This document shows, piece after piece, positions 23,153-64,000 of a stretch of DNA of 64,000 bases. The notes beneath the pieces were generated by a model. The model saw only the letters and a program-made list of their open reading frames with translations, had not been told where the DNA came from and searched no databases. Source of the DNA: Ceratodon purpureus (lineage: Eukaryota; Streptophyta; Bryopsida; Pseudoditrichales; Ditrichaceae). The stretch covers positions 11,747,594 to 11,811,593 of the forward strand of contig CM026431.1 in NCBI GenBank assembly GCA_014871385.1. Reading direction: 5' to 3'. Numbering within the stretch: position 1 is the stretch's first letter; every line of letters starts with the position of its first letter. Made by a program: the position numbers and the translations under genes.

Positions 23153-24284
23153 CGTGAGCCACAAACAATGGAGATATTTAGATAGACCTAGTATTGTGAC
23201 TTGTCTTCCTAACAAAATATCAAACAATAAATCTAAATTTTGCGTTAAGCTACATTAATTGAATTTATTATCAACAACTATTAACTTTTAAGGCTGTGAA
23301 CATTGATGTCAATCTACCAAGAAGTTTGATGTCTAATGGCCATTGTGATGAAATACCCAAACTCCAATTTGAAAGAAGTAATACGGGAGAAGTTGCACTT
23401 CCTAGTGATCTCAAACTTTGTAGCTCAAGTTGATCTTAAATTGTGGCTATGTTGTGAATTGTGCAGATTTCACTGTACAACTTTAGGAGTTGGCCACAAG
23501 GAGCTAAATAAAATAAAGAGAGGTGAAGAATCAATATCCGTGCCCTATAGAAAGCAACATACTGTCACTCAAATTCCATCATTAAGTTTTGACTTTTTGG
23601 TTTTTTCTAGGAGAATCTTGCACACTTGTATTGTCTTCATTGGGTTTCTACTAATGGCGGAATAGGAATACTCTACTCACTTTTATATTGGTCTACAAGT
23701 TCTACTTTCAAGTTTCAAATTACCTAAAAAATTCAATTTTTTCTCAAAAAAATATTTGAAAATTATATTTTAGAAGAGGACCCAAATTTCAAAACAACGT
23801 TTTTTTTCTCAACAAATTCTACCTTGGAAAACATGCCCAGATGCTTAAACTCACGGAAATACCCCTCGCTACCTTAGCAATCCAAAGCCATGACACAATT
23901 TCCCATCCAATTGTATTCCAGAATTATCAAGTGTACAAGCTGTGCAAACTGAGCTAGGCCGTTTCAAGCAAACATATACCAGGGCAGGACTATAGCGACA
24001 CTTCACATAATTCAAGACTTCTCAACCAATAAAGCTACTCTGTAACAAACTTCCTGACAGTCTATACACTAAGTTTTTGCTCATTAGGTCAGGGCCCAGG
24101 CTTTCTCCTTTATTTCTAAAGTGTAAGCTGCAAAACAATGCAATCCGTATTCATGTTCAATATTTCTTTTTCTTTTTTTAAGCAAATGAACAAGTTTCAT
24201 TGCGCGAAAAAAGCTGGTACAACCCTTATTGGACCGAAGTCCAGGGCAAGTGAACTAGTTCATGTTCAAATTATCACTACAATA
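23153..24284. other. Intergenic, no supported gene
   Basis: AT-rich flank of the transposon that starts at 24289. A 109-codon open frame at 23336-23665 has no recognisable domain, no splice partner and AT-biased composition like its surroundings. Confidence 0.45.
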
Positions 24285-24288
24285 TTAA

Positions 24289-24300
24289 CCCCTTTTGCAG
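24289..24300 (+). repeat. Left terminal inverted repeat of the 10.5-kb element
   Basis: CCCCTTTTGCAG, directly preceded by TTAA. It pairs perfectly with the inverted copy at 34772-34783. Confidence 0.9.
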
Positions 24301-25180
24301 GTTTGTGGGCGGGGTAGAGCAACTCGGAATCTTGTATTCTGGGGTTAGCGACCGGGGCGAAGCTGATTTACCCCGCTATATACATCCTGATTACAGTGAA
24401 TTTTTTCCTGCAAGAAGGCCTCGAAGTGGAGATCATTTGTAGCAAACCCATTCTCGAATCCGACATGTGTGGAATTAGTTCTGATTTTCTGTGTGCGACG
24501 GGGTGCAGCTGAGGTGAAAACCCTACGATACATGGAGGACCAGGTGCCGCAGGAATAGGTCGAGGGTTAGCGTACTGGGCAGGCCCCCCTTCGCGGCGGT
24601 GTACAGACGACCTCCGCGGTGGATGTGACGCGCGAGAGGGAGTCACCCGGTCGCTCGACCTACCGGGTGAGGCGGTTTCCTCAAGTCACGCGAGGACCGC
24701 ATGGCGGGAGAGCGAGGGGCAAGGCCGCGTGGACAAATGGGGACCGAGAGCTGCGTGGGGTCGTGACGTAGGAAGAAGTCCCAGGACTGGGGCCTCCTAA
24801 CCGTTTCCACTCCCACGACAGGTCTCACCGTGTGCGAGGATCCATCTGGTTTGGAGAAACGTAGACATAGATGTGATACATGTGACACACTCATTTCCAA
24901 AGGTTCGTAAATTAGATTAGATAGAAAGTGTAAAAGAGATTACAAGAACTCAATGTCAGAGAATTGTTTGAATTGTAATCCTAATAAACGGCCTGAAGTA
25001 TGTTGATAACATGGTGGAGTAAACTGATTTCCAAAACCTCTGTAACCCCTCTCAGCCTGTGCTGCAAAGCAAAACTACCTAGCCTAATAACTAACTGTAC
25101 AAGAGAGGTGATGTCTGCAGCAAGGGGCATTCGCACTCCAAAATTGGCTTGAGTAATAGGTGACAAAATTCCAGAATCAC
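24301..25180. other. Left subterminal region of the 10.5-kb element
   Basis: Non-coding, GC-rich. A block near 24640-24850 (GTGAGGCGGTTTCCTC, GAAGTCCCAGGACTGG, GGCCTCCTAACCG) has weak colinear similarity to 53050-53180, at about the same distance from the left end of the second element. It probably holds the 3' UTR of the B3 gene and transposase-binding subterminal sequence. Confidence 0.5.
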
Positions 25181-26411
25181 TCAGGTCTTGGTCACACGGA
25201 ATTCCACCGGTCCAACCTTCGTCAATGTCAGCGTGTCTCCAATCTTCAGATTGTTAGCCGCGACGAAGCCCGCCCAACCCGTTGTGAACATACAGAAGGT
25301 CTGTTTCCCTGAAGTATAAGTGCCAGTCTTCACGCACCAGTTACGCTCCGGGCCGCGGAGGAGGTAGGTGACGCCGTCAAACCAGTCCGCGCCATGGGTA
25401 CGCCAGAAAGCAGCCGGGACATCCTGCGGCACCCCCAACGAGAGCAATGTAAGTGATTACATACCACTTCGGCATTGACTTCACCCACGCGCTCGGAGAA
25501 TGACTTACATCAAGGAACGAAAGCAACAGAAGTTCTGAAGCAGGGGATACAATGTGAAGGAACAAGGGGATAGTACTTACGAGTCTGCTCGACTCTCCTG
25601 TCTTGGTGTGCGACAACTTCAGTGTTTTCGTAAAGTGGGGGCGCTCCTGCCGTCGCACTTGTGGGGGCTTCCGCCGACGCGAGCCAACACCGTCACTGTT
25701 GTCAACTTCCGGCACCTCGGGCAAGGGTCGAGGGGGTGCGAGGTTGCTGTCTTCGCCCTCGTGCGGCACGAACCGAGTGACATCGGAGACGACTGGGGGA
25801 ACGCTGTTCAGCATAGGGCGCTCACTGGGAGGAATGGTGGCGGCTGCCGCGGCGTCCACTGCCTGTACGTCCGGAACGGGTTGCTGTGGAGGGAGGTACT
25901 CGGCGGGTGCCCCACGTCGGTGGATTGTGACGACGAGGCAGCGGTCATCAACGACCTCGAAGGTTAAGAACGCGCCCCACGAAAGTCCGTGGTCCTGCTG
26001 AAATTTGTACCAGCCGGTGCCGACACTGACAGCGGAGACTCCGGTGCTCGGTTTGTCAACACGCTGAAGCTGAAGAGGCCACTCAGTTTTCGTCCAGTTC
26101 TTGACCGTGACAAGCGCGCACTGGGGATCCTGCCCAGGCCACCCGTGCTTTGCAGTGAAGGACGCCGGGATCTCCTGCACTTGCACACTCCCACGTCATG
26201 GAGCAGCCGATTAGCGTCATTCACACAAATCACATGCAATGGAAAGCAGAAGACGCGATACATAAACAGTGTAAACGACGTGCAGAAGAGAGCCGGTGGA
26301 AATTACCAGACTGGAGTCGCAGCCCGTTGACGTCAGGGTCAGAGCGAAGTAGCGGGCCTGGACGTGGTCCAGCTCGCGCAACACCTGGAAAGCACTGGGA
26401 CCGTCTGCCAT
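25181..26411 (-). CDS. Two-B3-domain (REM-type) DNA-binding protein, cargo of element 1
   Basis: Three exons on the minus strand, all phase 0: 26307-26411, 25581-26174 and 25181-25423, giving about 313 aa. Exon 1 encodes a short leader (MADGPSAFQVLRELDHV...). Exon 2 holds the first B3 domain at about residues 36-125 (EIPASFTAKHGWP... LQLQRVD... SVGTGWYKFQQDHGLSWGAFLTFEV), then a Pro/Ala/acidic linker. Exon 3 is the second B3 (DVPAAFWRTHGADWF... TFCMFTTGWAGFVAANNLKIGDTLTL). B3 domains are plant-specific beta-barrel DNA binders acting in the nucleus; the twin arrangement is REM-like. It lies about 890 bp from the left terminus and transcribes toward it. Two paralogues with the same intron positions lie in the second element (53645 and 55560). 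Family confidence is high; target and role are unknown. Confidence 0.85.
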
Positions 26412-27622
26412 TCTTCTGCGGTTGGAGAGGAGCGACGAAAGAGAAGAGGATCGGGGACGGGAGAAGATACTCTGCGCGACGACAATTCCAACAAGTTATG
26501 CGTCTCAGAGAAGGACTTACGCTACAGCATTCAGAAGAAAGGACACAATTGAGGACCTGGACAGGAATTTATGTAGGTGAAGACGCAGAGGACGGGTGTA
26601 AAGGCCAAGGGGGCGGGGAGTAACGGGAGTTCAAGGGGGGAGTGGGCTACGGGTTTAGGGTAAAGAACTGATTCATGACTGAGCCGGCACAGCCACCACG
26701 GCACTTGATGTAGCCGACCTCTTACGTGATGAGAAGAAGGTCTGAGCGTACGGACCTATAACCTGCCGGTCACTTCGTCCATCATGGGGATCCGCTGACT
26801 CAGCGGAGCATTGATCTCCCCGATCTACATGATTATCGATCAATTAATGCGTACGGGAGAGGGGAGTCACAATCAACAAAGACCAGAAGGGGGGGAAGAC
26901 GCAAGTAGGATTTCTGACATGTACGAGTCCCATCGGGGTTCTATGCAGCACTGACAACTACGAGTCCCATCGGGGCAATCATGATCTCCAGGTTGATAGG
27001 GAGTCGAAGCAAGTTGCAAATTCCTACTCAGTATCGCATGACAGACAGATGACAAACGGAACAGTGCACTACAAACGGAACAGTGCACTACAAACGGAAC
27101 AGTGCACTTATGAGTACGTGCTACTTACCATGGACAACATCCAGACAAGGCAGGACTCCAGTGCGTGGTACTCCCTTCTCACAGAGTTCCGTATATTGTG
27201 CACCCTCCAGTGCACCCTGTAGACTTCACAGTGGGCGGCTTCATGCGGGGCGTCCTTCTCAACCTCGATCCTCCCTGTACAGAACCAGGGTAAGACGGGA
27301 ACTACATGGGAGAACAGTGGACATAAAGGAATAACGCAATGTTCATAAAACTATAGATAGCAGAGAGCACTTACATCTGCATCAGGGTGGCTCCACGGTA
27401 CCTCCGGTGGCCGGTTTCTAAAGAAGATGACAGAGAACGTCCACAAACAATGGAAATGTACCTAAGAGGCCTCTAAAAACTGCGTGGAAATCCTTCAATG
27501 AAACTACTGAACCATTCACCTACACTACAGGTGTCGTCCTAACTGAATGCTCACAAAACAACTCAGTGAGTCAGGGGACGAATCAACTACTCTATACTGT
27601 GCTTCTCGGGACTGGTAACATG
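26412..27622. other. Element interior without a confident gene
   Basis: Upstream of the B3 gene, so it should include its promoter. A 19-bp unit (ACAAACGGAACAGTGCACT) is repeated three times in tandem at 27052-27108, and TACGAGTCCCATCGGGG occurs twice (about 26927 and 26959). No protein domain is recognisable. Confidence 0.4.
27052..27108 (+). repeat. 19-bp tandem repeat, three copies
   Basis: Three perfect head-to-tail copies of ACAAACGGAACAGTGCACT inside element 1. Each unit contains the palindrome AGTGCACT. Confidence 0.8.
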
Positions 27623-28087
27623 CTAAGGGGTTGGGGGGGATCCGAAGGGAGGGTCACTGTGGGTGCTGTCGGTGCTGCGGTCGTCGTCAGCGTCATCACT
27701 ACCGTCGTCTAGGCGTCCATCGTCTTCGTCCGAGGCAGCTGGGAGTACAGAAGCCGGGCGTCCAACAGTGCCGGGGGCGGAGCGCTGCGGCATTGAGGAC
27801 GACGTAACAGGAGATTCAAGAGGCGGTGAAGCCCGTTCCGAGACACTTACGTGAACAACGCCCGTGAGTGCGGCTACTGCCTCGTACTGGCTGGTGCAAG
27901 ACGGGGACCAATCCCATTCGAAGTCGTCATCGAGCAGATGTGTGATGGCTCCGTAGTTCGGCATTTCCACATCCCAGTTGACCTGCTCGAAGAGCTCCAC
28001 GCGCTTAAGCCATTCTCGAACCTCCTTAACAGTTCCTGGACGGTGCGAGGAGATGCAATCAAAGCGGCGCTTCATTGGATCAGAGGA
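27623..28087 (-). CDS. Unidentified exon(s) in element 1
   Basis: On the minus strand a splice-acceptor-like TTCTTAAG precedes an open exon 27851-28087 ending at a good donor (CAC|GTAAGT). It encodes a Trp/acidic-rich stretch (MKRRFDCISSHRPGTVKEV..., LLDDDFEWDWSPSC...). The same frame stays open past the donor to 27623 and becomes very Asp/Ser-rich (DDGRLDDGSDDADDD). I recognise no family. The composition looks coding and the strand matches the neighbouring genes, but neither a start exon nor a terminal exon could be placed. It may be a separate cargo gene or captured host sequence. Confidence 0.35.
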   Translation of the reverse strand, partial: SSDPMKRRFDCISSHRPGTVKEVREWLKRVELFEQVNWDVEMPNYGAITHLLDDDFEWDWSPSCTSQYEAVAALTGVVHVSVSERASPPLESPVTSSSMPQRSAPGTVGRPASVLPAASDEDDGRLDDGSDDADDDRSTDSTHSDPPFGSPPTP

Positions 28088-29243
28088 CTTAAGAACAGAA
28101 GAAAGCAATGACAGAAAGCACTGAAAACAAAGAGAAGAGGAGAAAGGCGTTTAGAGGCAGGAGGGGGAGGGGTTTGTAGTCCACAAGCGCTGGAAGTTCT
28201 CGCGGCCACGGAGGTCGCTGTTGTCCACGCAGAAACATAAGTCCGCCACATGCGACACTGTGACAATCAATTAATTTCGGAATACGACAAGGTCTCAGAC
28301 ACTGACGGGGCGTAGTCCGGTAGGGTCCCTCCGCTGCTTGAGAGGTCCCGCAGAGCACTGTCGTGCACAGCTCTACCATGAACCTGTCACATTCACTTTG
28401 TGAGAACCTGCTGTACATGACTCTAACTCACCTGACTCTAGACCCGGACTGAGGTTCTGAAGGGGCACAAAATTCAATCCAACACACACTCCGTATGCTG
28501 ACAAGGGTTGAGTGGAGATTGGACACCTCTTACCAACTGCCAGCAGGGGTTCTGGACATTCTTTGTCTATGGAAGTCTCCCTAGCGATACACCGCTTCGC
28601 TTGATCCGAGAAGGAGAATAACATACCGTCAGCGACCGCACCTGGAGGAGTATATTACACAGAGCAAGTCACGTATCATTAGAGAAGATTCCAGGTTAGC
28701 CCAGAAGGATACAAGTGCCACGTTCGCAGGATGGTAGACCAGGGAGTACTTCACGTGAACCCGACCTCAGTCTCTGTTCCAGAACAGATTTCAAAAACAA
28801 ACAGTTACATAGTCCGACATTTACAAACGACAAAGTTATGCGTCTGAGACGTAACAGATAAGGTCCAAGTGTTCTCTGTTCATGAACAGGGTCACTAAGT
28901 TCACGAGGCAGCTTCAGTGACAGTTTTTCAGAGAGAAGTGACTTCCAGAAGCTCCTCTGATGCCTAGGCCCGGATTCAGAGAGCATCGCTTCAAAAACTT
29001 AGAGCCTACGTGGGTGTAGTCCGTCTCCATTTCGCCGTGCACAGAACTCACGGCGGATCTCCCCAGCATTGTCACGAGTCGGTCAGAAGGAACGACGGCG
29101 GAATCTCGGAGTAGAGGACCGACCATCGCGCTTCCTTGAGGAGTCAACTCCATGTTCTTCATGCAAGGTGACCGCGGTCCTCCTCATATCCTCCGCTCCG
29201 TCCTGCGAGACCGTTCACGGTAAGTTCAGCATAGCTAAAATAA
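28088..29243. other. Downstream flank of the element 1 transposase gene
   Basis: Probably includes the 3' UTR of the transposase gene. A minus-strand stretch near 28170-28265 reads VSHVADLCFCVDNSDLRG after an acceptor-like CACAG and could be another exon of the unidentified gene, but it has no acceptable donor. Nothing else is supported. Confidence 0.3.
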
Positions 29244-32200
29244 TCAGAGCGCCCTGCCAGTACGCCGCTGTAACCTTTCATGTTGTGTTTGGTAGCATGC
29301 TTCCTGACACATCCACTTGTTTCCGCAAGATGAACAGAACCATTTCTGCACTCGGCCGCAAATTATACAGCGTCGCTTCAGGGGAGACCGGAATAGTGTG
29401 TGGACGGGTAGGGGGCGCCTCGGTGCGGGTACAGCGGGGAATCTTTGTCGTCTTCGGCTCTGTATTTCCTCCTCAGCCAAATGCTTACCAACAGTGATTT
29501 TGAACTTCAAATGCGACATCACTGGGGAACCAAGCTGCTCAACCTCTTTCTTCCAGGTGACGTACGAGTTGACCATAGTCTGATCCAGGACGAGGTGAAA
29601 AATTTTCACCCACCACTTGTGACAACGGAGTTGGCAGGAGTAGCTCCCCCGGAGTTGATCTGCAACGTCCACACCGCGCATGTACTCTACGTACTGCCGG
29701 TGCATGGGGGATGAAGGCACCTCAACCTGACCTCGACGTCCAGGTATCCTTCGAAGTACTGAGGTGTTCGGTTCCCATGGAGACGTTGCTGTGCTCAATA
29801 GCGTTACTAGTTTTTTATCTTGCCAAGATACTACGGCCATCTGGCGGTGCACGTGAGTCCAGATCACCATTGAACCCCGCATGTTCCCATCCACCGTCCT
29901 CATGAGACCCGCAGGCAAGTTCTTACTTAAACGCCGCACTGTACCTGTTGCCCATATCCCATTACACATTAGCTCGTGGAAGAGGTTCACACTTCCGAAG
30001 AAGTTGTCAATCACGAGGCAGTGCCCGCGGTTTTCAAGCCCCGCCACCATTCGCTCAACGACGTGGTAAGCCAAACCATTAGGGCCAGCCCCTGTCCCTT
30101 CACCAAAATATACCTCCATCCCCGCAACAAAACGACTCTTTGAGCTTGCCAGCAGCCAGACCTTTATCCCAAACCTGACTGGCTTCTTAGGCATGAATTG
30201 CCTGATGTGGCAGTAACGGCCCTTGTAGGGGATTACACATTCGTCCACGGTGATTTCCCTTTCTAAGTTATAAATCTCCTTCGATACCTTCACAAACATG
30301 TCGACAATCCATCTGGTCTTTGCTATCCTGTCATACCTCGGGTCATTCACATCCCTTACAACAGTACTATTATCTATCAGATGCAGGCAACGCATAATGG
30401 CCTCCCACCTCGATAAAGTCATGATGGAGGATATCAGATCGCAGTACAGGAATGGAACACTACGCATCCAATACTGCCTGATACTGGGCAATCGTTTGCA
30501 CCCCATGAGTATGCAGATTGCGAGCCATCCCCGCATCTCCACCCGAGTGACCTCGTACCACCTTGGTCCCCCCTTCGTACGCGGACGCTGATTCTCCAGA
30601 GGAGGCATGGTTGTCTGTGCGTACCTATTCGTTTCCATTACAATCCGGTCCACGCACTCATCCGTCCAGTACATATCGAAGACTCTGTGCGGGAGAGGAA
30701 CTCCTTCAGGTGGAGGGGCGGTCAGACCAGGAGGAGGGCCCGTGAAGTCGTCACGGCTCCGAACGAAGTCGACGCTGCCTGAAGACCAGGAGCTTTTCCG
30801 ATAGTGATGGGCAAGCTCCATTGTATCCATGTGCCGGGGTGTAAAGGCCTCCGGCCGCATGCACCAATTCTCCAACCCCGGCTGATCGTTCTCTGGGTCC
30901 TCTTCATCTACGCCCAGTCGTGCCTCATCGTCGGTTTCTACATCGTCCTCCCACTCTGGGATCCACTCCGCGTCACTAGAATCTGCTGACAGTAGAGGCA
31001 ACCCCCCCCCCACCCTCATCGTTCCCTAGAGTCCTGTTAGGACACAGCATGTATCGAGGCAGATGAGCGCTTACCTTGGGAAAAGTTGCTCTCGCCGTTG
31101 AGTCTTGAGTACCGTCAACCCCCTCCATGTCAGAGGGGGCATCATAGTCCGCGATGGGGTGACCATGTGGCTCGACGGACCCTGCGTCGCCACGGGTGTT
31201 CTCAGCGACATGCTCTGTTCGCCTCGGTCCTTCTTCACTACCACCGGCGCAGGATCCATGGTTTACCCCCCCAACACCTCCCCCCGCGACACCGCCTGAG
31301 TACGCATGGAAAGCCCCGCCCGCATCCGGTCCCCGTCCTGCCCCTCCACTCATGCTTCCGGAACCTCTACCTGGAGTTCCAGGGTAGGACTCCAGATTGT
31401 CCGGGAAAACGACAGCATTCTTCGGGCTGAAGCAATGCTGGCGTTTCCACCAACCATACCCGTGACCACCCTCGGAACCATAGGCACGGACTTCTGGGCC
31501 ATCTGCCACACGGACATTCTCTTCCGGCATGTGTAGCTCCATGTTGTAGCCGCCGAGGTCGCATAACACCATCCTCTTCCCAGTACCCGTGTGCAGACCC
31601 TCCCCAATGACATCTCCCTGCGTCCAGGAGGGTGTGTCCCCGGTGTGGAATGATGCCTCGGAGAGGAATCTATTTGGGACTAGGACAGCCCACCCAGACC
31701 GACGGGAGCTCCAGTCAACGTATGTGCCGATAAACTTCTCAGGCATATCCCCCACAGCGACACGCACCAGCCTCTCAAGCGCTCCACCGGGATGTGTAGC
31801 TCCAAAGCCGGTATGCCTCGCAATGGGAGGGAGCGTCGACCTCCAAGCGTCGTCCCGGAAAACGGAGTCCCACAGGTTTATATTGCATGTCTCCATGCTT
31901 CCTACGGAGTGCAAAGACTCCGGCGCCACTATGTCGTCAAACTCATCGTACCCGGAGCGGAAGTCAGCAAGCACCTCGCAGATGGTTTGGTCGTTGGCCC
32001 TCTGTCGCTCGTACTCAGCGCACAGCGCTGCTAGCGCCCGCGTTTGGACCCCTTCCGTGGCATTTGGGACGACAATTGGTATCTCCCAACCCTTGGGCTT
32101 CCGGTGCTGTTTCGGCTTTGTGCTCTTCCCTTTCTCCTCCTTCGTGTACTTACGAGGACGCCGTCTCACTCCACCTGGCCATTGCACAAGTCAGGGTACG

Positions 32201-32447
32201 CAAAAAGAATTCCTCACAAGCAGCACCGCATAGAATACCTATGAACACGCATGGAAGGAGGCGCCAATTGACATGGAAAAAGTAGGAGTAAGTCACCCCT
32301 CTGCGACTCAAGTCATGGTGTTGGTAGTTCTCTCACCCCGGCATGCTGGTGTTGTATCAGGTGGTGGAGGCCCAAAGTCGCTTCCTGGTGCACTCTCCGG
32401 CATGGGCGTTTGCTGGCTGGAATCCGCGACTCCCACTGCTATCGTGG

Positions 32448-33083
32448 CTACCCTCTTCGCCCTGGACTTCCTCTGGGTGAGAGGAAGCCCCCCCTCTGCG
32501 ACGGGCTTCACCTGTCTCGGCTTCCTCGGACGTTTCACCGCCTGGCTCGGCGGTGGTGTCATCAATTGGGTGAGTGGGAGCGCCGTATCCTCTCCCACAG
32601 CGGGCTCGTTGCCAGCGACCACCGGCGGGAGATCCACCTGCACAGTGCCTTGTAATTAGTCCCTTCGCACCATTGGGAAGCCTATTCTCCCCAAATCACA
32701 TGCATTGGAAATGTACAGTAACGAGAAGTTCCGAATCTACTAAAATACAGAAAGCCAGCATATAGGCGTCTTCGTTCGAAATGTACCTGCTGGGCTACCC
32801 TCTTCGCCCTGGACTTCCTCTGGGTGAGAGGAGGCCCCCCCTCTGCGACGGGCTTCACCTGTCTCGGCTTCCTCGGCCGTTTCACCGCCTGGCTCGGCGC
32901 TGGCGTCATCAACTGGGTGAGTGGGAGCGCCATATCCTCTCCCACAGCGGGCTCGTTGCCAGCGACCACGGGCGGGAGATCCACCTGCACAGTGCCTTTT
33001 AATTAGTCCCTTTCGCACCACTGGGAACCCTATTCTCACCAAATCACATGCATTGGAAATGTACAGTAACCAGAAGTCCGGAA
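32448..33083. repeat. Tandem duplication of an AT-hook-like exon with its intron
   Basis: 32448-32738 and 32793-33083 are about 95% identical direct copies (period 345 bp). Each copy includes the exon encoding KRPRKPRQVKPVAEGG plus its upstream intronic sequence. Both copies keep the acceptor (GCAG|GTGGATC) and phase 0, so the duplication added one in-frame exon. Confidence 0.85.
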
Positions 33084-33670
33084 TTGCACTTACTTTCTTC
33101 GCCCTGGATTGGCGCTGACGCTTCGGTTTCGGAGGGAGGTCTTCGTTTTCCTTCCCCGCTGCCGTGAATAAGCCGATTGCGTCCACCCCCCCTGCATCAC
33201 AGCCTGTGCTCCACGGTGAGTATTTATTAACTACGATGCTAGTCACAGTTGCAGTTCACCATCTCCCATACTAGGACCCCGCATGCACAAGAAGAGAAAA
33301 CGGGTCAAGTGCTGCACAATGGTGAGTAGTTTACCTTCTTCTTGCTCTGCCGTGGCTTCCTCTGCTTTGGCTGCGGAGCTCTTATCTCCGGCGCCGTTAG
33401 AGGAAGGCATAACTGGGACAACCGTATGTCCTGCACATTTCCACACCCCATGGGAGCGCACATGAGGTCATTTCTGCCGACACTGAACAGTATAGGACCG
33501 TAGGTCACCAGCATTCCCACACCTACTCTCGAGAGGCATCATTTGCGGAAATTCAAAACACAAGAAGGAAATTCACATGCATGATGCCTCCCACAGTTGA
33601 CATTACCAGGGATGCTGACTCTAATTTGGGACTCGCAGGATTAGAAGAAGCTGACTCTAAAACCCTGAAA

Positions 33671-33686
33671 CTAAACCCTAAACCCT
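33671..33686. promoter_or_regulatory. Telobox-like motif near the 5' end of the transposase gene
   Basis: CTAAACCCTAAACCCT: two units of the plant telomere-type AAACCCT motif. Such teloboxes commonly lie near plant transcription starts and first introns. Here it falls in the presumed first intron of the transposase gene. Confidence 0.4.
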
Positions 33687-33799
33687 GTCACAGCGATGAT
33701 GAACCATACCTCTGTTTCCATGGCTGGCTCTGAATTGTGGTCCACTGCCGTCAGAACAGGCTGAGACGCTCCCCGCGCCATCCTCGCCAATCGCTTCAT

Positions 33800-34771
33800 C
33801 CTGTCGAAGGTCGCTCGGGAAAATGTGATTACGGAGGATGTCAGTCACAGTATCCGGGAACTTCTTCCGCTCGCACCAACCAAGAATACGCGCAGCGTGT
33901 CTGTACCACAGATATCTGCAGCGTTCTTGGGCTCCAAAATGCCCTCGTCGATTCCAGGTACTCGGCCGTGCTTGTGCCAGAAGTGCCCTCGGATCCAGCA
34001 ATTGCACAGCCCTTGAGGCCCCCTCCTTCGAAACCCCCTGTCCTGCAAACCACCTCTCCAGCTGCCCCTCCAACGCAAGGCGCTCCCCGCTCTTTGCTGT
34101 CCCAATATATCCCATGTAATGAGTACTCCACAGACGCATTGGCAGAACGCACAGGCTTCAAACGCGAAATGAATTACAGAAATTGCAATGCCAGAGGAGA
34201 TTATAACCTGCCGTCGCGAGCATCTCCGGAAGTCAAACCTGCTCTCCATTTCCCCCCTAATCCGAGCAATGGTACTCCAGACTCTCTTGTCACAATCTCC
34301 GCAGCCGCCTCCCTCACATCCTAATCGCCGTCGCAAGGCAGTCCGGATCAGCGACAACAAGTCATAAACAAATTGGAGAAGCCGCAAAACAGCGGAGTGG
34401 AGAAGGTGGAACGCGAGCGGACCCTGGAAACCCAATGGCGAGGGCTTCGTCACACGAGGGTGTCCTTCAACGACCCCGACCGGCCGAGGCGGTCACCAAC
34501 GGCCACCGTAAGTTACGGATTCCCCCCCAGACGGCGCCGCCCTACCTACGGCGTCCAGTACGTCCACCCTACGAATACCCCGCAATACACGGAAAACGAA
34601 ACGTTTCTGCTCACAGAAACCACCCTATGCCTCCGAAAATTATTCAGAAAATTGGACAATTTCCCCCATATCACTGCCGAGGTATGTGTAGTTTGGACCT
34701 TCACCTAATTCTCAATATCACAACGGGAAAACAGGAGAAAGTAACAACCGTAGGCCAGTTTGGACTGGTAA
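33800..34771. other. Right flank of element 1, no confident gene
   Basis: Minus-strand frames of 106-202 codons overlap here (for example one with YLWYRHAARILGWCERKKF), but no family is recognisable and no complete exon chain could be built. It should contain the transposase promoter, 5' UTR and right subterminal sequence. Confidence 0.35.
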
Positions 34772-34783
34772 CTGCAAAAGGGG
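34772..34783 (-). repeat. Right terminal inverted repeat of the 10.5-kb element
   Basis: CTGCAAAAGGGG on the plus strand, the exact inverse of 24289-24300, directly followed by TTAA at 34784-34787. Confidence 0.9.
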
Positions 34784-34787
34784 TTAA

Positions 34788-52697: not shown

Positions 52698-52701
52698 TTA
52701 A

Positions 52702-53644
52702 CCCCTAAAGGATGTTGGCCCAAAAATGGAGGTGCTGTACATGGCGTATTCTGTGGCAAATTCTGTATACAGCAGCAATTTCTGATATTAATAGTGGCAT
52801 TTTTGGTGTGTTAATTTTTTGTTTACATTCACTGAGAAGTCTGTAAGAGAGTTGTGGAATTACATTTAGAATGTGATGTGCCTATAATTTTAGGGAAATT
52901 CATAAGTGAGAGGGGGTCTGAATCCCTGTGAAAATGGAATTTGTATGGGAGAAGGGGAATAATACAAAGTCAGAATACAACTGCAACAGAGTCTGCCACT
53001 GAATCTAGCTTTAGGGTGACTGAGGGTAGAAAGTTACACCCGGGGAAAGTGACCGGCTGAACCGGTCCCTGGAAAGGCGGTTGGGATTACCTCGGATCCT
53101 GAGCGAAGGAGGTGAGGCCACGCAACAGGGGGGGGGGGGGGTTGCAGGAAGTCCTGGGACACGGGCTTCTAACTGCCGTGGTGTCCCGTGGCTTCAGCAT
53201 ACACAGGCAGTCAGTTCAGTTGACTAACAATCAGTTGAGAGTGAAACAACAAGAATGCAAAGGGGTATTACAAGGTGTGACAAAGGTATCAGAAATTTGA
53301 AACACAGAGTACTCGGCCCCAGGTCAAGGATTATTACAAATATGTCTAAGGTGAAAGGAATGAAGTAGCACAAAATATGTCAAGTAGTTCACCGAGTTAG
53401 AGCACGGTTCGGAGAATGGAGGGGAGTAGTGGTGACACAAGAAGTCACCAAGCATCACAGGGCTCAGCCACCAATCGATGGTCCGTTTCTGCATTGAACT
53501 ACGGGGTAGTCTCTTGGGAGAACACCGAAGCCTTCAATCCTGAGAGTAAGGAGCTGGAAATCCGCGACTAATAACCTGGGAGGGAATAGAAACTTGCATC
53601 CACAATGAACTGCCAAGGGCCACACCGAGACTCAAGGCAAGAAG
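52702..53644. other. Left subterminal region of the second element
   Basis: AT-rich to about 53030, then GC-richer. Contains a G14 run at about 53130-53143 and a block near 53147-53180 (GGAAGTCCTGGGACACGGG) similar to about 24770 in element 1. Probably includes the 3' UTR of the B3 gene. No coding sequence seen. Confidence 0.45.
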
Positions 53645-54749
53645 CTACTCATCTACGACAGACACTTGAAACGCTGCAGGGCCAGTTTTCACGAACAACA
53701 AGGTGTCTCCAAGCTTGAATTTGTTGAGCATCCAGAACTCCCACCAACCTTGTGTGAGGAAGCAAAAAGTCTGTCGTGGAGTGATGTGCAGTGCGCTTTT
53801 GGCAATTCCCCACCACAATGGACCAGAAATCGTGAACAGTTTCCCATCGAATTGCTCCTGCCCCTGAGTCCTCCAGTACTCGGTGGGGATGTCCTGCAGC
53901 AGGGGATGGAGAATTAGATCGCAGCAGGGTAATTGAAGTGAGAATTGGCTAGGCAGCTGCTACGATCAAGAACGAAGTGAAGGAACAGGGAACTTACGAT
54001 GCGAGCTTGGGGGCGTGGTAGGAGGTGTGTCTTTCGAAGTGTCTTTGTGAAGCGAGGGGACTCCTGAAGGTTGGCTCCGGCATCGGGGAACGAAGCAACC
54101 ACTGAGGGGGTAGCGGCATCGGGAGTGGAAGCGACGACTGAGGAGGGACCGGGGGAGGAAGCTACGACTGAGGCGGTGGCGGGGTTGTTGGGTACGGCCT
54201 CCGGTGGAGCAGCAACCGGATTTCGGGGCTCCCGTCTCAGCTTCTTCTCGGGGCTGCGGGGGAATCTCTTCACCGCCAACGCGTCTTCACCAGCCCACTC
54301 AAACACCAGGAGGTCACCCACAAGGACTCCGAAATCTGCCACAAATTTGGTGAAGCCCCACCCGATTGACACCGCGGAATGGACCCACTGTCTGCCTTCG
54401 AGGCGCTGGAGGTTCACGGGCCACTGTTCCTTGCCGGTGACTGAAGTGAGGAGTACGCACTTGTGCGAGGTCGGGAATCCGCATCTCTCTGTGAATGTCT
54501 TCGGCACCTTCTGCATTGAGCCAGTCGATAAGGAAATGGTGGGTTAGTGGGGATAGGGAAATTCATGCTATGTAATAGAAGGTGCACACGAACTACGAGT
54601 AATTCGAGGGTTGGGGAACTCACCAGCTCCAGCAGATCCATCTCCGTTTTCACAGTCACGGAGAAGTAGATCGCGGCCAAATCGTCCAGCTCACGGAGCG
54701 CCGCACCCTGCAGATCATCCAAGACCTCACCCGGGTTTCCAGCGGCCAT
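53645..54749 (-). CDS. Two-B3-domain (REM-type) protein, second element, minus strand
   Basis: Exons 54624-54749, 53998-54510 and 53645-53893, all phase 0, about 295 aa. Exon 1 encodes a leader (MAAGNPGEVLDDLQGAALRE...) matching in position and character the first exon of the B3 gene at 25181. The first B3 (KVPKTFTERCGFP... SIGWGFTKFVADFGVLVGDLLVFEW) is followed by an Ala/Pro/Ser-rich linker with repeated VVAS motifs. The second B3 is DIPTEYWRTQGQEQF... TFCFLTQGWWEFWMLNKFKLGDTLLFV. Expected nuclear DNA-binding protein. It starts 810 bp from a divergently transcribed paralogue at 55560. The position next to the element's left end mirrors element 1. Confidence 0.85.
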
Positions 54750-55559
54750 GGCTTCAGTGAAGGAACAGGGGATTCAAGGCGCAACAGCGAGAGGAAGACA
54801 GAGTGCAAAGGAGGAAGGTGAAATTCGTAGGGGGAAGCTAGGGGGAAGAGCGCAGCGGTGGCGGAGTGCAGGAGCTGGGCTGCGCGAATGCAAACTACTG
54901 TGGAGGAATCGCATGGGTGAGGAGAAAACTCACATGAAGAAGACGCTGAAATCAATGTCCAGCGCCGTCTGCCCCCGTCCATGGCTGTCCCCTCCGATTG
55001 ATGGCGCCGAAAAATAGATTGGTGGGTGCTGCAGGAAATCCCCCAGGAGCAGATGAATCCCTTGGTGGGTGCTGGCGCCAAGAGGTGGGGACTGCGGGGT
55101 CGCAGGGGACTGCAGAACCGCTGGGGAATAGAGTGACGGGGGGACTGCAGGACCGCTGGGGACTGCAGAATCCCCAGCTTGATGCATAACGCGCGCCCCC
55201 GGGCCTGCGCCGACACACCAGGCACTCTCCACCCCCGCTTTGGAGGTCTCGTTCCGACTGGGGGGTTACTGTAAATCCCCCAAAAATCTCCCATTCCTCT
55301 TTGATGCCGCGAGGAGGTCATCATTACCGATTCGATGGCTTGCTACCCTCGACGCAGCAGCAGTTGGGCGAATGCTTTACGAAGCCCACACTTAATCTCG
55401 CGGCGGCTGTGGACCCTCCCCTTCAATCCGCCATAGCGAACCCCCTCCACTTCAATCCGCCATAGCGAACCCCCTCCACTTCAATCCGCCATAGCTATTG
55501 TCTTCCACTGTCTTGCCCTTGCCCTTCTCCCCACCCACGCATTAGTGCCACGCAGGGCA
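54750..55559. promoter_or_regulatory. Bidirectional intergenic region between two B3 genes
   Basis: Shared upstream space of two divergent B3 genes. It contains GGGGACTGCAG-type repeats with CCGCTGGGG at about 55085-55180, and a 29-bp unit (CCTCCACTTCAATCCG...) repeated three times at about 55415-55500, immediately upstream of the plus-strand gene. Long open frames crossing it are repeat-driven and unsupported. Confidence 0.45.
55415..55500 (+). repeat. 29-bp tandem repeat, three copies
   Basis: Units starting CCTCC(A/C)CTTCAATCCGCC at 55415, 55444 and 55473, ending about 60 bp before the ATG of the plus-strand B3 gene. They are positioned to act as promoter or 5' UTR elements. Confidence 0.8.
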
Positions 55560-56578
55560 ATGGAGGAGCCCAAGTCCGAAGTCGCTGCCGAGCTCGAAGA
55601 CGTACGGGTTTGGTACTTCACCGACGCCCTCACCAGCAACGCTCACCCTCGCCAGCTGGTACGAATTTCGTGAAGCCCTCGTGCCCTCGTCTCTGCGGCA
55701 ACCGATTGACATGAGTGAGGACTTCTGATACTCTCTTTGTGTGGAGAACCTGCTTAGAACACCAGCCACGCATGAATTCAGTGCTGACAATTTCGGTGGG
55801 AGGGGGGGGGTGCGGTTGTTACCTGTGCAGGAGGTGCCCCACGTCTTCACCCGTCGAACCGGCTGGCCACAGTCCAGCGAATGTTCGTTGACGACGTCGC
55901 GTACCGCGAACAAGCACTGGCCGGTCCGCTTCCAGCTGGCTGGTGACCCTTGGTGCACCCGGGCCTCGGTGTCCGTCGGTGAAGGGTACTCGGAGTTCCT
56001 GGCGGATAACCGGGTGTACCTGCCGGCTCTACTTCTATTTGAGAAGGTGGACGACACCACCCTCGCCGTCACCATCCACCGCGACAACGCTCTTCCAGCG
56101 CAGGAGCCTCTTCCTCCGCCACCCTACGAAGATGACCGCCCCCATTTCCTGAAGACACTTCGAGCCTGCCACGTGAGGCCGCTGAAGTCGTCTCGAATGG
56201 TAAGTCTCGAGGTAGCATAAATGTAATTGTCCATTCCTGGCTATTTCATGTGCTTGAAGTCCTCTGTATGTGTTTAGCTGCTGGTGCCCCCTTGTCCCTC
56301 TCAATGTTGCTCACCGTCGTGGTTAAACTCCACAGGATGTTCCTACAGCCTACTGGCGCACTGTCGGAGACGAGAAATTCGATGGTGCTTGGTATACCTT
56401 TGTCGGCCCTGTGGAGACGGTGCGAGTCAAGTCAGCACGCTGCTTCTCCCGCGTACAGACTTTCTGTTACTTCAACAAAGGATGGGTGGACTTCGTGGCC
56501 CTCAACCACCTCAGGCAAGGTGACACACTCGTTTTCGCAGCTACAGGTGAAGCGGAGTTCGAGGTAGTGAAGCTGTGA
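55560..56578 (+). CDS. Two-B3-domain (REM-type) protein, second element, plus strand
   Basis: Exons 55560-55658, 55831-56199 and 56336-56578, all phase 0, about 236 aa. Exon 1 is a leader (MEEPKSEVAAELEDVRVW...) corresponding to exon 1 of the other two B3 genes. The first B3 is EVPHVFTRRTGWP... SVGEGYSEFLADNRVYLPALLLFEK and the second is DVPTAYWRTVGDEKF... TFCYFNKGWVDFVALNHLRQGDTLVF. The linker is much shorter than in the two minus-strand paralogues, which explains the smaller size. Intron 1 contains a run of ten G. Same family and intron pattern as the genes at 25181 and 53645, but opposite orientation. Confidence 0.86.
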
Positions 56579-57142
56579 GCACCAGCTACCGTCACCAAAA
56601 TGGAGCCTAGGATCAGAAAACAATTCAGTCAATGACGGAGTTCCTTACAAGAAGCGTAGAATGGAAAATTCAAGGGCTACCAGTTTGGATGAGTGCTTTA
56701 TGCATTAATCCAGGTGTCACCAAATATTCCCATGCTACCGTCAGATGCGATAGAACAACAGGGGCTTCGTTACATCTGGGTCTAATATAGAGATACAATT
56801 TGCAAAACAATTCAGAGGACATACCTGAGAATAACGTTACAGTTCGCACAGAAGACTTCATACAAATCGAGGTCTTGCTGAACTATTTCACATACTCAAG
56901 AACCCTTTCAATGTATTCAGCCTCAGATACTTGAAATGTTTACTTTGATTTGAACTCCTTATAATCTAATGTCAACTTACTCACCGCAGGCTGTTGCTCA
57001 ATTTTGCACCTGCCTTGAAAAAAGCTGCCTGGCCCATGATACAGCCTGAAAAGCCGGTTTCTTCGTACAGGATGATCTCTGAGTACCAAACGACCTCCAT
57101 CGCCCCATGAAACATCGAATCTCTTGCTCTTTCAGCATCCCT
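56579..57142. other. Space between the B3 gene and the Cactin fragment
   Basis: Presumed converging 3' ends of the plus-strand B3 gene and the minus-strand Cactin fragment. No other feature seen. Confidence 0.4.
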
Positions 57143-58594
57143 CTACCGCCGATACCTGTATCTCTTGAAATTAAAGTAAACATGCAGAATCCCTCGCTCA
57201 AACGTGCACTTGAATCCTTTCTTGTGAGAGTACTCCCACTCCTTGCTCACAATCCGGAACGCAATATCTTCATATGGAGGGCCAGCATGAAAGCGAATAA
57301 GGCATGTTTCCCCGTCGCCAACATCTCTCTCAATGAAATAGGTTGGTGCCTTGGTCTTATCCACCAGATCGGGATAGAAAATGTTGAACTTGTACCCCTG
57401 TACAATCTTTGGGGGTGGATTCTCGTGATCGTAGTCAGTCTGGTTGTACTTGTTCCATTCGTAACCGGTGTGCACCCTGTTGAAATACTTCGGCTTCCTA
57501 GGCCTGTATTTATCATGCCACCAATACACCTGAGACTCTAGGTTTACCTCCGATCCTGGACCAAGCATCGTATCACCGTCCTCCATTCCTCCCATAGATT
57601 TCATCACAGAGGCACGCTCAAGAGGTGTAAGCTCAAGAGGATCCTCCTCAGCAGCAGCGGGTCTGGCAGCTGCCTCCTGTAACCTACGTTGTTGCTCATC
57701 CAGAACCTCAGCCCTTTTCCTCTCCAAGTCTGCTTTATCTGCTTCAGGGTCCAACACCTCAGAGCCATCAACCTCTTGCACAGGTTCTGGAGAGTAGTTG
57801 CCTCCATCGTCTTCGTCTTCTGTCTGCGCTTCATGCACAGGCTCTGGTGAGACAGCAACTTCCTCCCAGTCACTTGTAGGTTTCTCTTCTTCCCGCTCGA
57901 CCTCACGGTCTTCACTCAGAGGCCGCTTCTCGAACCCATCAACGTATTCAATACGTTTTAAGTGCTTTCGGAGTAACTCAGCATGTATTTGCCTCAACCG
58001 GGCCTTGGCTTTGTAGATGTGAAGGCGCTTAAGAACTGCCTCCCAGTACTCTACCACTTGTGCTGTGCCTGTGAGCATCTTCGCCTCCGTTTGCTCCTGC
58101 AAAATATCCAGCTGCGCTACGCTCTGACCCCGCAACATGTGATCTACTTCGTCATCCACTCCATGCAGACCTAGGTCTTCTGCCACGAGTTCGTGAGGAG
58201 GCTCCTCCCCACGCAGCTTTGCCCGATCAAGAGCATCCCTCTCCCGAGTTTGCGCAATTTCCTAGTCGCAAACAACCATCATGGATTCCCAGAATTCAAT
58301 ATGGGTTTGAGTAGCCCGGTCCAACTCAAGATGCATTTTGATATCCTGACGCAACTCTTCCATCTCCTTGACTGTCAAACCCTTGTAAATCTTATACGGC
58401 TCACTGAAATCGGGGTCGAAATCCTCAGACAAGTTCAAGTTCTTCGAGAGCACATCAATCGGCTTTGCTCGGCCCTCCCGCAAACGAATCTCAGACCGCA
58501 CTTTACTCTGTTCAAAGTGAAACTCCTCTTCCTTCTTCTCATAATCTTGAAAATCAGCCCTCGCTCTCTCCCGCGCAAGCAACGCCATGTCCTC
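57143..58594 (-). pseudogene. Cactin fragment, 5'-truncated, with one in-frame stop
   Basis: Continuous minus-strand frame of about 484 codons covering the Cactin middle domain (EKKEEEFHFEQSKVRSEIRL, GLTVKEMEEL, HLELDRATQTH) and the complete C-terminal domain (PRKPKYFNRVHTGYEWNKY, ending FNFKRYRYRR). Cactin is a conserved nuclear spliceosome-associated protein. The family reads VVCDW here; in this copy the Trp codon is replaced by TAG at 58262-58264, while the frame remains open on both sides. The segment begins after an acceptor-like CTTGCAG at 58595. The family's long basic N-terminal region is not found in the next 1.2 kb upstream. This looks like a captured or relict host-gene piece inside the element, recently inactivated; a base-call error at the stop cannot be ruled out. 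Confidence 0.8.
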
Positions 58595-59789
58595 CTGCAA
58601 GAAAAGTAACTGCTAAGTATCACAAATCCAAAGGTAACACATCATATAAAAATCAGTTTAATAGGCCATGTTCAACCAAAATTCATCACCTGCTTGCCAA
58701 TTTCCGATTCTCCATGTCCTGAAGGTGGCCAGGTAGCTTCTCATCAGCACCCATTCCAAGCTCCATCTCCTCAGATCCTGAATTTGCTCCCTTAGAATTG
58801 GAGCTAGAAACATCTTTTATCTTCAATGTTCCGGGTTTCACATCCACTGCCCAGATCAGGTTCCTCGTATGCCTGGAGCACTCACAGGGCAACAGCGTCA
58901 GTGGCAGGCAAAAATGGATGGGTGAGGTGTCTGCTGAGGAAAAATTCAACAATGCACAAGCAAAAAATGAAATTATTAGGATTCCTTGCATAATTACCTT
59001 GGAATGCCACTGCACACCTAGAAGGACAAAATAATTCGTGAAATTTCGAAGCACAATCAGACATCCCAAAAAAATAGTTTTGGGATGCATCAAACCAAAT
59101 CAGGTCACAGAATTGGACACCGGAATCAAGTGCAGAGGATGCCAAAACAGGTTGCTCAAAAACTATAATCCGTGGAGAATTGAAAAGCGTGCAGCATATA
59201 AGTGCAGAAAGTAAATATTTACCTTGAACCAGTGACTTTCGCACGGATTGGTTCTTCAACACTTCTGCGTAAAATGACCATCTCCTGTAGAACCTGCCAT
59301 GGCCATGAAGGTAGAAACTAATCCACAAACAAGGTTGCCAAAGGAAACTCACCGACACTGAACACAGAAACAATTTACAAGAGAGAAATGCGAGCCGGTT
59401 CTCATTAACACCGAAACATGGAAGGAAAAATTACAGTAGCCAAGTGGTCCATCGCCGAGGCAAAAAGCAAGAAAATGCTGCAAGCTAAGGTTCTGCACTG
59501 CGCTAATAGTTCTGAGGAGTCCCCTTAGAAGTAACGCCCCTATGATGATAAGGATAGGACTTAGACTTGGCCACTGTGCTGAACAAAAAACAAAAAATTT
59601 GCCACGGCTTCTCGTGGCCAGCAGATTCTTCAACATGTGTGCCTCGCGGTTGGAAGATGGAGGATGAGGCTCTCGGGTCGAGTCGGAGTACGACAGTCCT
59701 CACCAGCCTCGAACGCCACTGCCCACCGTAGTCCCGCTATCGCCTGTACCCGCCCCAAAACATGACAGATTGTGGCAAACAAACCCGGG
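58595..59789. other. Unassigned interval upstream of the Cactin fragment
   Basis: A minus-strand open stretch around 58690-58870 encodes NLIWAVDVKPGTLKIKDVSS and an acidic tail (SGSEEMELGMGADEK), with a donor-like CAG|GTGATG at its end. It reads like an exon but does not resemble the expected Cactin N-terminus, and I recognise no family. The remainder shows nothing definable. Confidence 0.3.
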
Positions 59790-62700
59790 TTAGGAACTGA
59801 GCCTCTGATGAACTATGTGGTAGCAACTCTGGGGGCACATCCACCGGAATCCACACGCAGGACAGTACCACCGCCCCACATGGCCACATTCAACACACTT
59901 GCGCTTCAGCGAAGATTGCCAATGGGAGTGCACGTGAACAGCTCCACGCTGCCGAGGAGTGGGGCAGGCAGCAGTACGAGGTCTTGCATTGAGCCAGTCA
60001 GCCACCAATCGCTTCCCCACGGCAATCTTGAACCGCATGTGAGTCATGACCCGCAACCCCAGGGTCTCCATCTGAGAACAGTAAATCACATATGAATTGA
60101 CCATGGTCTGATCAAGAATGAAGAAAAAAAGTTTGTGCCACCACTTATGGGTTCTGAGTTGTGAAGAGTAGTTCGCACGGATTTGATCACCTACATCCAC
60201 TCCCCTCATATATTCCTGATACTGCAGGAGAATGGGGGAGGAAGGGACGATGAGCTGGCCACGCATACCCTTCTCTTTTCGAAGCACAACCAGACCCGGC
60301 GCCCAAGGGCTCGCGGCTGTGCTCAACAGGGTCACGAGACACTTGTCCTGCCAGGACACAGCCCCCATTTGCCTGTGGTTGTGAGTACGGATTACCATGG
60401 AGCCCCTCTCCGAATTCTTCGTGTCTCGGTACAGCCCACTGGGCAAGTTCTTGCTTGTACGTCGAACTGTTCCTGTAGCCCAGAATCCGAGGCACATGAG
60501 CTCATGGAAAAGATTCACCGAGGCAAAAAGGTTGTCCACGACTAAGCAGTGCCACCTTCGCTCAAGCCCTGCCACCAACCGCATCACAACATGGTACCCA
60601 AGCCCATGCCAACCAAGACCCGTGCCTTCGCCGAAGTAGACTTCGATATTGGAAACAAACCTGGATTTTGAACTAGCCAGAACCCAGCACTTGATTCCAA
60701 ATCTCACTGGTTTATCCTTCATGAATTGTCGAATAAAACAGTATTGCCCCTTGTAAGGGATCACACATTCATCAACCGTGATCTCCCGTTCAAGGTTGTA
60801 AATTTCCTTGGAGACCCTCACAAACATGTCTATCAGCCAACGCGTCTTGGCTATTCTGTCAAACTGCCCCGAGCCCAAGTCCCTCACCACCTCCCGGTTG
60901 TTCACAAGGTGCAAACATCGTAGCAGCTCCTCCCACCTCGCAAGGCTCATGACGCTGGAAATGAGATCACAGTAAATGAACCCGTCATCCCGCATCCAGT
61001 AATGCCTAACAGAGGCCAATCTTTTCACGCCCATTAGGACACAAATCCCCAGCCATGCCCGGAGCTCGGTTATGCTAACATCTCTCCACTTAGGCCCACC
61101 TTTCGTTTTCGCATCTCCAACAACACCATTTGTTTCCCTCGCGTAGCGGTTTGTCTCATCGACAATCCTCCCAAGAGTTTCGGGAGTCCAGTAAAGGTCG
61201 AAAACTTCTGTTGGTTCGGGCACGGCACTCGTGGAATGGCGGTACCCAGGCTCAGGTCCGCAGAAGTTCTCCCGGCTCCCTAACAGTGATACCGTGTTGG
61301 CGTTCCAAGACTCCTCCCTGTAGTATGCTTGCAGCTGCCACATTTCAAGGTGCCCAGGTAGGAATGACCCCGCACTGCCGCACCACTCCGTGAAGTCCGC
61401 TGGTACAGGACGTCGAGGCGGCGCCCAGTCGGCCTCACACTCTTCGTCACTCTCGAGGTCGTCTTCCCATTCGGGTATCCACTCCTCCCCGGATGAGATG
61501 GCTCCCTCGCACTGCTGCTCTGCGCCACCCTCGCTCTGACCACCTGCTGGAGCATCTAAAATCATGTAATCAGGAAAAGTGGTGCTCACCTGTGGGAAGA
61601 CACTGCGGCCCGTAGACTCCTGCGTCCCACTTGGAGTCTCCACACACCCCTGCTCGCTGTAATCCGAGATTGGCCGAGTTGCCCATCGCTCCGGCACCGG
61701 TGCATGATCTCCGACTTCCTCTGACTCCCCCCCTCTTACACTCTCTTCCCCCGCTCCACCCCCCTGTCCCAACATAGACTTCTTCAACCCAGCAGCCCCC
61801 AAACCTTTCCTCCGGACATGCCAGCCGTAGCCGTGCCCACCTTCGCTCCCCTGCGCCCGCACGTCCTTTGCAATCGCCATGCGCACATCATGCACCCCGA
61901 AATGCATGAGCTCCTCAAAGCCGCCCAACTCGCACACCACCATTTTCTTCTTAGTCTGCATGTCTTCATATTCTGCCACGACGTCACCCTGAGTCCAAGA
62001 CGGCGTCTCACCCGTATGGAAAGAGTATTCTGACAGGAACCTATTGGGGATGAGCACTGCCCAACCCGCATGCGTGACATCCCAATTCCGCCGGGATAGC
62101 TCCTCTGCTCCCACCACCTCCCTGTGCAGAATCCCTTGTCCCCTCCCTCCTCCAACACCACTACCGCCTGCCAATGGCGTTGTCGCTGCCCAGTCAGGTT
62201 CCTCGTATATATGTTCCTCAAACTCCAAGTTCCGCGTACCCATGCTATCGCAGGTCTGCTGTGACTCCGGGGCCTGGTGACATTGTAGCACATCCCAGAT
62301 CGCTGCGTCTGCATCCTCCTGCTCTTGCAACTTGAAGTCCAATGTTCTCCTCGCCCGTGTTGTCACCCCCACCATGGCATTGGGCCTGATGACGCTCGGT
62401 GGTCTCCAATGCTTGGGCTTCCTTCCCCTGCCTGCCTTGCCCTTGCCCTTCTCCTCCTTCGTTAGGCGCTTGCCGGTCCTCCCTGCCCAGATTTCCCACA
62501 CACCCAGAGCATCCGCCACCCCCAGCCAAGAAGGTTAGTCGTTAATTCCCCATCCTTGAGAAACAGCTACTGAACAAATTACGCTAAGTCCAGAGGACAT
62601 GGAGCAGAGAAAGAATAAACAAGCGAAATGAAAGCAATACCGCCCCAACAGTCGGCGAACTTAGCAAAGCAACACACTCCCCACTCCCTATCCCATGGAG

Positions 62701-63988: not shown

Positions 63989-64000
63989 CTAAAGATACCA

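Follow-up and report, generated by a model that had tools for sequence, protein, structure and literature searches.

A 64,000-nucleotide stretch of the genome of the moss Ceratodon purpureus (contig CM026431.1, here C11, positions 11,747,594 to 11,811,593) contains a 10,503-bp piggyBac transposon that carries, beside its transposase, a gene encoding two B3 domains. We call the whole stretch the window, and plain coordinates refer to it. The element probably represents a multi-gene piggyBac lineage, abundant in the moss, in which the B3 protein would serve as the element's own sequence-specific regulator. The B3 gene seems to be a constrained and recurrent element gene rather than chance cargo. 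What was new and unexpected was that two other open reading frames (ORFs) of the element, ORF-A and ORF-B, have diverged in step with the transposase, which the B3 gene has hardly done. The parts of the window element are as follows.

24285 to 24300, + strand: TTAA target site and left terminal inverted repeat (TIR; CCCCTTTTGCAG), read from the sequence; identity to other copies begins here.
25181 to 26411, − strand: gene of about 313 amino acids with two B3 domains (PF02362).
27623 to 28150, − strand: ORF-C, a small conserved protein or first exon, present in 6 of 17 related regions fetched from the genome.
29244 to 31025, − strand: catalytic ORF of the piggyBac transposase (DDE_Tnp_1_7, PF13843, E = 3.1e-69; aligned D261, D340 and D453).
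30976 to 32190, − strand: ORF-B, a conserved N-terminal transposase region without a known domain; ratio of nonsynonymous to synonymous differences per site (pN/pS) 0.28 to 0.44 against diverged copies.
32308 to 33117, − strand: basic exon region resembling an AT-hook, a label given by eye; relatives have a homologous basic block.
33714 to 34115, − strand: ORF-A, a conserved helical domain, from profile matches and predicted structure.
34772 to 34787, − strand: right TIR and TTAA, read from the sequence; identity to other copies stops here.

The sequence TTAACCCCTTTTGCAG lies at 24285 to 24300 and its reverse complement at 34772 to 34787, which places TTAA, the piggyBac target site, on both sides of the element. 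Among the 275 TTAA sites of the window, this is the sole TTAA-anchored pair 1 to 25 kb apart with at least nine perfectly inverted bases. The guanine-plus-cytosine (GC) content is 0.54 within the element and 0.39 in the 500-bp flanks. The TIRs begin with CCC and are 12 bp long here and 12 to 16 bp long in nine paired elements; TT precedes 19 of the 24 exact AACCCCTTTTGCAG sites in the genome. The transposase also matched piggyBat (9c0f; E = 5.5e-33) and, less strongly, another entry classed as a transposase (6x67; E = 5.5e-24), and the motifs around its three aspartates aligned with those of both piggyBat and piggyBac, forming a DDD triad. A Cys/His pattern was recognized by eye at its C terminus, in a part where no Pfam domain scored above the cut-off. 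An initial annotation, made from the sequence alone, had described a complete 10.5-kb plant piggyBac with several genes, one of them a B3 gene, citing TTAA on both sides, a perfect 12-bp inverted terminus, an abrupt GC shift at the boundaries and piggyBac-spaced aspartates. All of this held up except for the word "complete," which fits both termini and the catalytic ORF yet not the coding sequence as a whole: in the window copy, a frameshift close to a G run at about 31.0 kb interrupts the ORF-B/transposase frame. The shift represents either decay or a homopolymer error.

The B3 gene has three predicted exons (26307 to 26411, 25581 to 26174 and 25181 to 25423), separated by GT-AG introns in phase 0 whose splice sites were placed by eye from the sequence rather than from transcripts. 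Its two domains matched PF02362 at E = 1.2e-9 and 2.1e-9. The best profile matches in the PDB were RAV1, TEM1, NGA1 and At1g16640, all of them weak (E = 0.011 to 0.6). By domain content, the element appears to hold a second gene with a predicted DNA-binding domain alongside the transposase, as VANDAL elements do with VANC.

ORF-B and the catalytic domain form a single open frame in six of the seven relatives printed (the exception is C5_19831900), and they also lie in one frame, with two in-frame stops, in the C4_6405650 copy. Genome-wide, 36 of the 135 listed ORF-B matches (34 loci, two of the matches being second pieces of loci already counted) sit in stop-free frames of at least 850 amino acids. 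The transposase gene probably starts with ORF-A as its first exon, a join to ORF-B being suggested by gene order and co-divergence. AlphaFold predicted a five-helix domain for ORF-A (pLDDT, the model's per-residue confidence, 68.4), and no PDB structure matched this predicted fold at E ≤ 0.001. For ORF-B, the profile found no match in the PDB and the AlphaFold model (mean pLDDT 31.6) gave no usable structure. The basic exon region contains a 220-bp internal duplication (32446 to 32665 and 32793 to 33012, 96% identical).

Other genomic copies, which the initial annotation had suggested seeking by TIR and TTAA, were found. The 16-mer TTAACCCCTTTTGCAG occurred 19 times in the 362-Mb genome (151 contigs), versus 0 for its reversed control. 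We fetched 17 regions by the window element's terminus or a one-base variant of it ending in T. ORF-A, ORF-B, the transposase and B3 followed in the same order in 10 of them; the other seven comprised one deletion copy, three regions holding only one or two of the modules and three that lacked all of them. The deletion copy (C10:173817-180607, 6.8 kb) is 99.3 to 99.5% identical to the window element, lacks 30348 to 34136 and retains B3. Elements with paired ends measured 8.7 to 11.5 kb, apart from this copy, a C12 copy split by an insertion and a short one of 1.7 kb. The last (L021, C1:24895997-24897688) has TTAA and ends of the same type but lacks every gene, and is probably a non-autonomous derivative.

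The same arrangement recurred across the genome. We compared 130 ORF-B loci (135 matches before merging; 132 of 194 candidates scored) with the best 150 of 420 matches to the second B3 domain (B3-2), the best 150 of 287 to ORF-A and the best 150 of 726 to PF02362. A B3-2 match lay within 12 kb of 70 of the 130 listed ORF-B loci, downstream on the same strand in 64 of the 70, versus a mean of 1.3 and a maximum of 6 loci in 1,000 random placements (for which the sizes of C7, C8, C13 and C11 were assumed). At 114 of these loci ORF-A preceded ORF-B on its strand by 0.5 to 8 kb, and at 60 of the 130, on 13 contigs, ORF-A, ORF-B and B3 followed one another along a single strand. C6 (110.5 Mb, 30.5% of bases) held 43 of the 130, which is no enrichment. 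The best 116 matches to PF13843 (116 of 998 first-look candidates were scored, a lower bound) belong mostly to other piggyBac families; 10 had B3-2 within 12 kb and 5 had ORF-B within 4 kb. The 50 best of the 150 listed PF02362 matches, which are probably host-type B3 genes, all lay farther than 12 kb from every listed ORF-B locus. The link between the listed ORF-B loci and B3-2 is specific. The supposition that piggyBac elements are scarce in plants fails for this genome, with its at least 116 scored PF13843 matches, and the description of B3 as cargo fits poorly with its recurrence at one position in a fixed gene order, seen in 10 of the 17 fetched relatives and 60 of the 130 listed ORF-B loci. 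A dense cluster of PF02362 matches at C2:19.02-19.89 Mb, away from the listed piggyBac loci, probably consists of host B3 genes.

Copies of different ages part from one another at TTAA. Identity between the window element and the copy at C4:6406150-6416359 begins at 24285 and stops at 34787, and with the C10 deletion copy it begins at 24284 and stops at 34788; the window element thus parts from its 96 to 97% and 99.3% identical relatives at TTAA to within one base. The copies at C10:2459435 and C6:95210491 are 98.7% identical over 11 kb and likewise diverge at TTAA, beyond which a few bases on one side also match by chance. Since near-identical copies part at TTAA, the whole unit, B3 gene included, transposes, and the lineage, judged from such copies, is recently mobile. 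TTAA cut-and-paste by the piggyBac transposase is supported by the anatomy of the elements together with these copies. The initial annotation had named two findings that would count against its reading, relatives without precise TTAA boundaries and related transposases without paired TIRs; within this genome we found instead that copies part at TTAA and that paired TIRs surround related transposases. Searches of the same genome for empty sites of four insertions (the window element, a second element in the window, its C5 sibling and C10:173817) found none and returned only the insertions' own flanks and weak partial matches. On the C6:95210491 side (L036), the element abuts another piggyBac-like end (...TTTAGGGGTTAACCCC...), one TTAA being common to both.

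Abrupt GC changes at both ends might also be produced by an assembly artefact or by contaminating DNA. We regard this as most improbable, given copies of differing ages on 13 chromosome-sized contigs, TTAA duplications and plant-type introns.

The second element of the lineage lies at the end of the window and has two B3 genes, on opposite strands.

52698 to 64000, continuing to 65608 (C11:11813201), − strand: second element, 12,911 bp, TIR TTAACCCCTAAAGGATGTTG, delimited by TTAA/TIR and copy comparison.
53660 to 54516, − strand: B3 gene 1, deeply diverged by sequence comparison and tree.
55801 to 56572, + strand: B3 gene 2, in the clade of the B3 genes of the C2, C5 and C4_5028500 elements.
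59799 to 61505, − strand: transposase, 58.5% identical in amino acids to that of the window element (PF13843, E = 4.5e-73).
61521 to 62480, − strand: ORF-B, 35% identical in amino acids to that of the window element.

B3 gene 2 matched PF02362 at E = 0.024 and 1.6e-6, below the curated cut-off, and no TIRs of its own were found around this extra, opposite-strand gene. The ends of the second element are 99.8% (1,270 bp) and 99.9% (2,639 bp) identical to those of the C5 copy, and at both ends the two part at TTAA into unrelated flanks; only these 3.9 kb of ends were compared, and protein matches in the middle of the C5 copy equal those of the second element in score and spacing.

Between the window element and the copy at C4:2607113-2618049, the ratio of nonsynonymous to synonymous substitution rates (dN/dS) was 0.20 for ORF-A, 0.10 for ORF-B and 0.12 for ORF-C, and 0.39 and 0.43 for the two B3 domains, versus 1.47 for a wrong-frame control. 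The transposase had saturated dS in this comparison and a pN/pS of 0.22. These values indicate that the B3 domains are under purifying constraint. The B3 gene might still be passive cargo, a host gene captured once and carried without a role for the element. Large DNA transposons are known to pick up host genes. Pack-MULEs and Helitrons are cases in point in the passages of PMC6431247 drawn on here. The B3 gene also evolves faster than the transposase (pN/pS 0.33 to 0.69 versus 0.22 to 0.45), as cargo might. However, it occupies the same position in elements whose transposases differ in about 40% of residues, its dN/dS stays near 0.4, the second element acquired another B3 gene on the opposite strand, and the B3 gene was retained, in one case, by the 6.8-kb deletion copy that lost half of the transposase. 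We therefore consider passive cargo unlikely and favor a B3 gene that belongs to the element.

The history of the modules was compared in 11 elements, leaving out C4_6405650, which is nearly identical to the window copy and has a split B3 match; the alignments (A1 to A5) exclude copies with in-frame stops. Distances for ORF-A and ORF-B followed those of the transposase closely (Mantel r = 0.93 for each, 0 of 5,000 permutations each), whereas those for B3-2 (r = 0.43, 54 of 5,000) and the first B3 domain, B3-1 (r = 0.31, 154 of 5,000), did so only loosely. In the transposase tree, the C12 element joins C10_2458900 and C6_95197000 (support 99/98); in the B3 tree, C10_2458900 and C6_95197000 instead join C6_36153100 and C6_42120200 (99/98). 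Approximately unbiased (AU) tests rejected the swapped clades both ways (p = 1.2e-6, 5.5e-5, 1.6e-49 and 0.0017). From this supported conflict it follows that B3 modules were either exchanged between lineages or duplicated and differentially lost. Descent from ancestral elements with two B3 genes, followed by differential loss, is a credible account of the conflict, if not one we would bet on: the two very different B3 genes of the second element make such hidden paralogy possible, but the extra gene there is in reverse orientation, and the B3 block of C10_2458900 and C12_4000800 resembles a replacement in place, the terminal, ORF-C and transposase parts of the two being 73 to 85% identical and the B3 block between them without a match.

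We propose that the transposase, in which ORF-B is fused to the catalytic domain and ORF-A and the basic exons are probably joined on by splicing, would cut and paste the 9- to 13-kb unit at TTAA. The B3 protein would bind DNA and regulate the element's own expression or silencing state, and turnover of the B3 module would change which copies it recognizes. We infer this role because the B3 gene is conserved, always lies beside the transposase in this lineage among the matches listed and diversifies by module; it may perhaps resemble that of VANC in VANDAL elements or of the additional DNA-binding protein that other plant transposons encode. A more specific version, in which B3 cassettes were swapped among transposase lineages as anti-silencing or transposition specificity factors, VANC-like but independently arisen, is a speculative idea that we hold only tentatively.

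Several observations weigh against a self-directed B3 regulator with exchanged modules. No target motif of the B3 protein was identified, because the only terminal 7-mer shared among the elements was poly-C and the B3-type RY hexamer, about twofold above expectation in some elements (the C12 copy excluded), was not so in others. We saw no VANC-like conserved tandem motif arrays in the elements. In the close pair formed by the window element and C4:6406150, constraint was weak (B3-1 0.60, ORF-B 0.65, ORF-C 0.86), as expected of decaying copies, and synonymous sites were saturated for most pairs of copies. The clades for the AU tests were chosen after the trees had been seen. Finally, 74 of the 150 listed B3-2 matches had a listed ORF-B or transposase match within 12 kb and 76 did not; many of the latter are therefore solo genes, host genes or genes beside partners outside the matches listed.

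B3 proteins are plant transcription regulators, and the unit might accordingly have been domesticated, its B3 protein acting on host genes and being kept by host selection. We think this very unlikely: the copies are dispersed, recently moved and variable, with frameshifts and stops, and the top 50 of the 150 PF02362 matches, probably of host type, lie more than 12 kb from the listed ORF-B loci. An element-serving B3 protein remains the reading that we prefer.

Further observations concern relatives and insertions. A more distant 4.6-kb piggyBac (L044, C9:7446000-7455900; TIRs TTAACCCCCTAACGTCCA and TTAACCACATAACGTCCA) has no B3 match and carries an ORF-A-like block and an AT-hook-like motif, both weak matches, ahead of its transposase; another (L043) has one 1,023-amino-acid frame and no B3. 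A perfect tandem repeat of 3 × 19 bp (ACAAACGGAACAGTGCACT) lies at 27052 to 27108, between ORF-C and the B3 gene; the other elements checked showed no array of it. A 46-kb span on C12 was considered as a giant piggyBac and rejected, a separate 35-kb insertion being what splits the copy there. This 35.4-kb insertion (C12:4002147-4037575; L014, L023 to L025) is bounded by a 10-bp direct repeat (TCCAAGCCGG), has GAGCG-rich inverted ends, contains tandem arrays of about 191 and 210 bp and looks like a very large Mutator-type element.

In this moss, then, piggyBac is an abundant, recently mobile plant transposon with several genes, among them one for a putative regulator of plant type. It could offer a second, independent system for studying how plant transposons counter host control. 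Counts of B3 "transcription factors" in mosses may include transposon genes, since at least 74 of the 150 listed B3-2 matches lie beside piggyBac genes. A literature search, with most subscription journals and Repbase outside its scope, found no report of a piggyBac with a B3 gene, of a B3 domain with a transposase in bryophytes or of piggyBac in C. purpureus. Passages of PMC8086355 and PMC10813416 do state that piggyBac-like elements occur in plants.

Like piggyBac and piggyBat, the moss element has a TTAA target, TIRs starting from CCC, and a DDE_Tnp_1_7 domain with the DDD triad; judged by eye, it may also have a Cys-rich C terminus. Unlike them, the moss elements span 9 to 13 kb, extend the transposase by ORF-B (and probably ORF-A) and add a gene with two B3 domains and often ORF-C; the animal piggyBac elements surveyed in the relevant part of PMC10813416 are 1.23 to 9.51 kb long with single ORFs. 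The fish piggyBac-herpesvirus fusion Teratorn, a known multi-gene giant of 41 to 182 kb and largely viral according to passages of PMC6431247, is likewise oversized and multi-gene, but the moss element is about 10 kb and nothing viral was recognized in it. The initial annotation's suggestion of a Teratorn-type counterpart was accordingly not sustained: Pfam scans of selected ORFs of both elements recognized no viral family, and scans of viral contigs with ORF-B and the transposase gave 40 and 178 pattern matches, none confirmed as a relative. With the plant B3 proteins RAV, NGA and REM the moss gene shares the Pfam B3 domain, but it is encoded inside a transposon and its PDB profile matches are weak. 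VANDAL elements of Arabidopsis are of Mutator type, VANC is described without mention of B3 in the portion of PMC5735166 consulted, and its targets are tandem motif arrays, which were not found in the moss elements. That source presents VANC as a transposon-encoded, sequence-specific anti-silencing factor that diversifies between subfamilies, and in this respect the moss element is similar: a plant DNA transposon with a second gene of DNA-binding type that diversifies between subfamilies.

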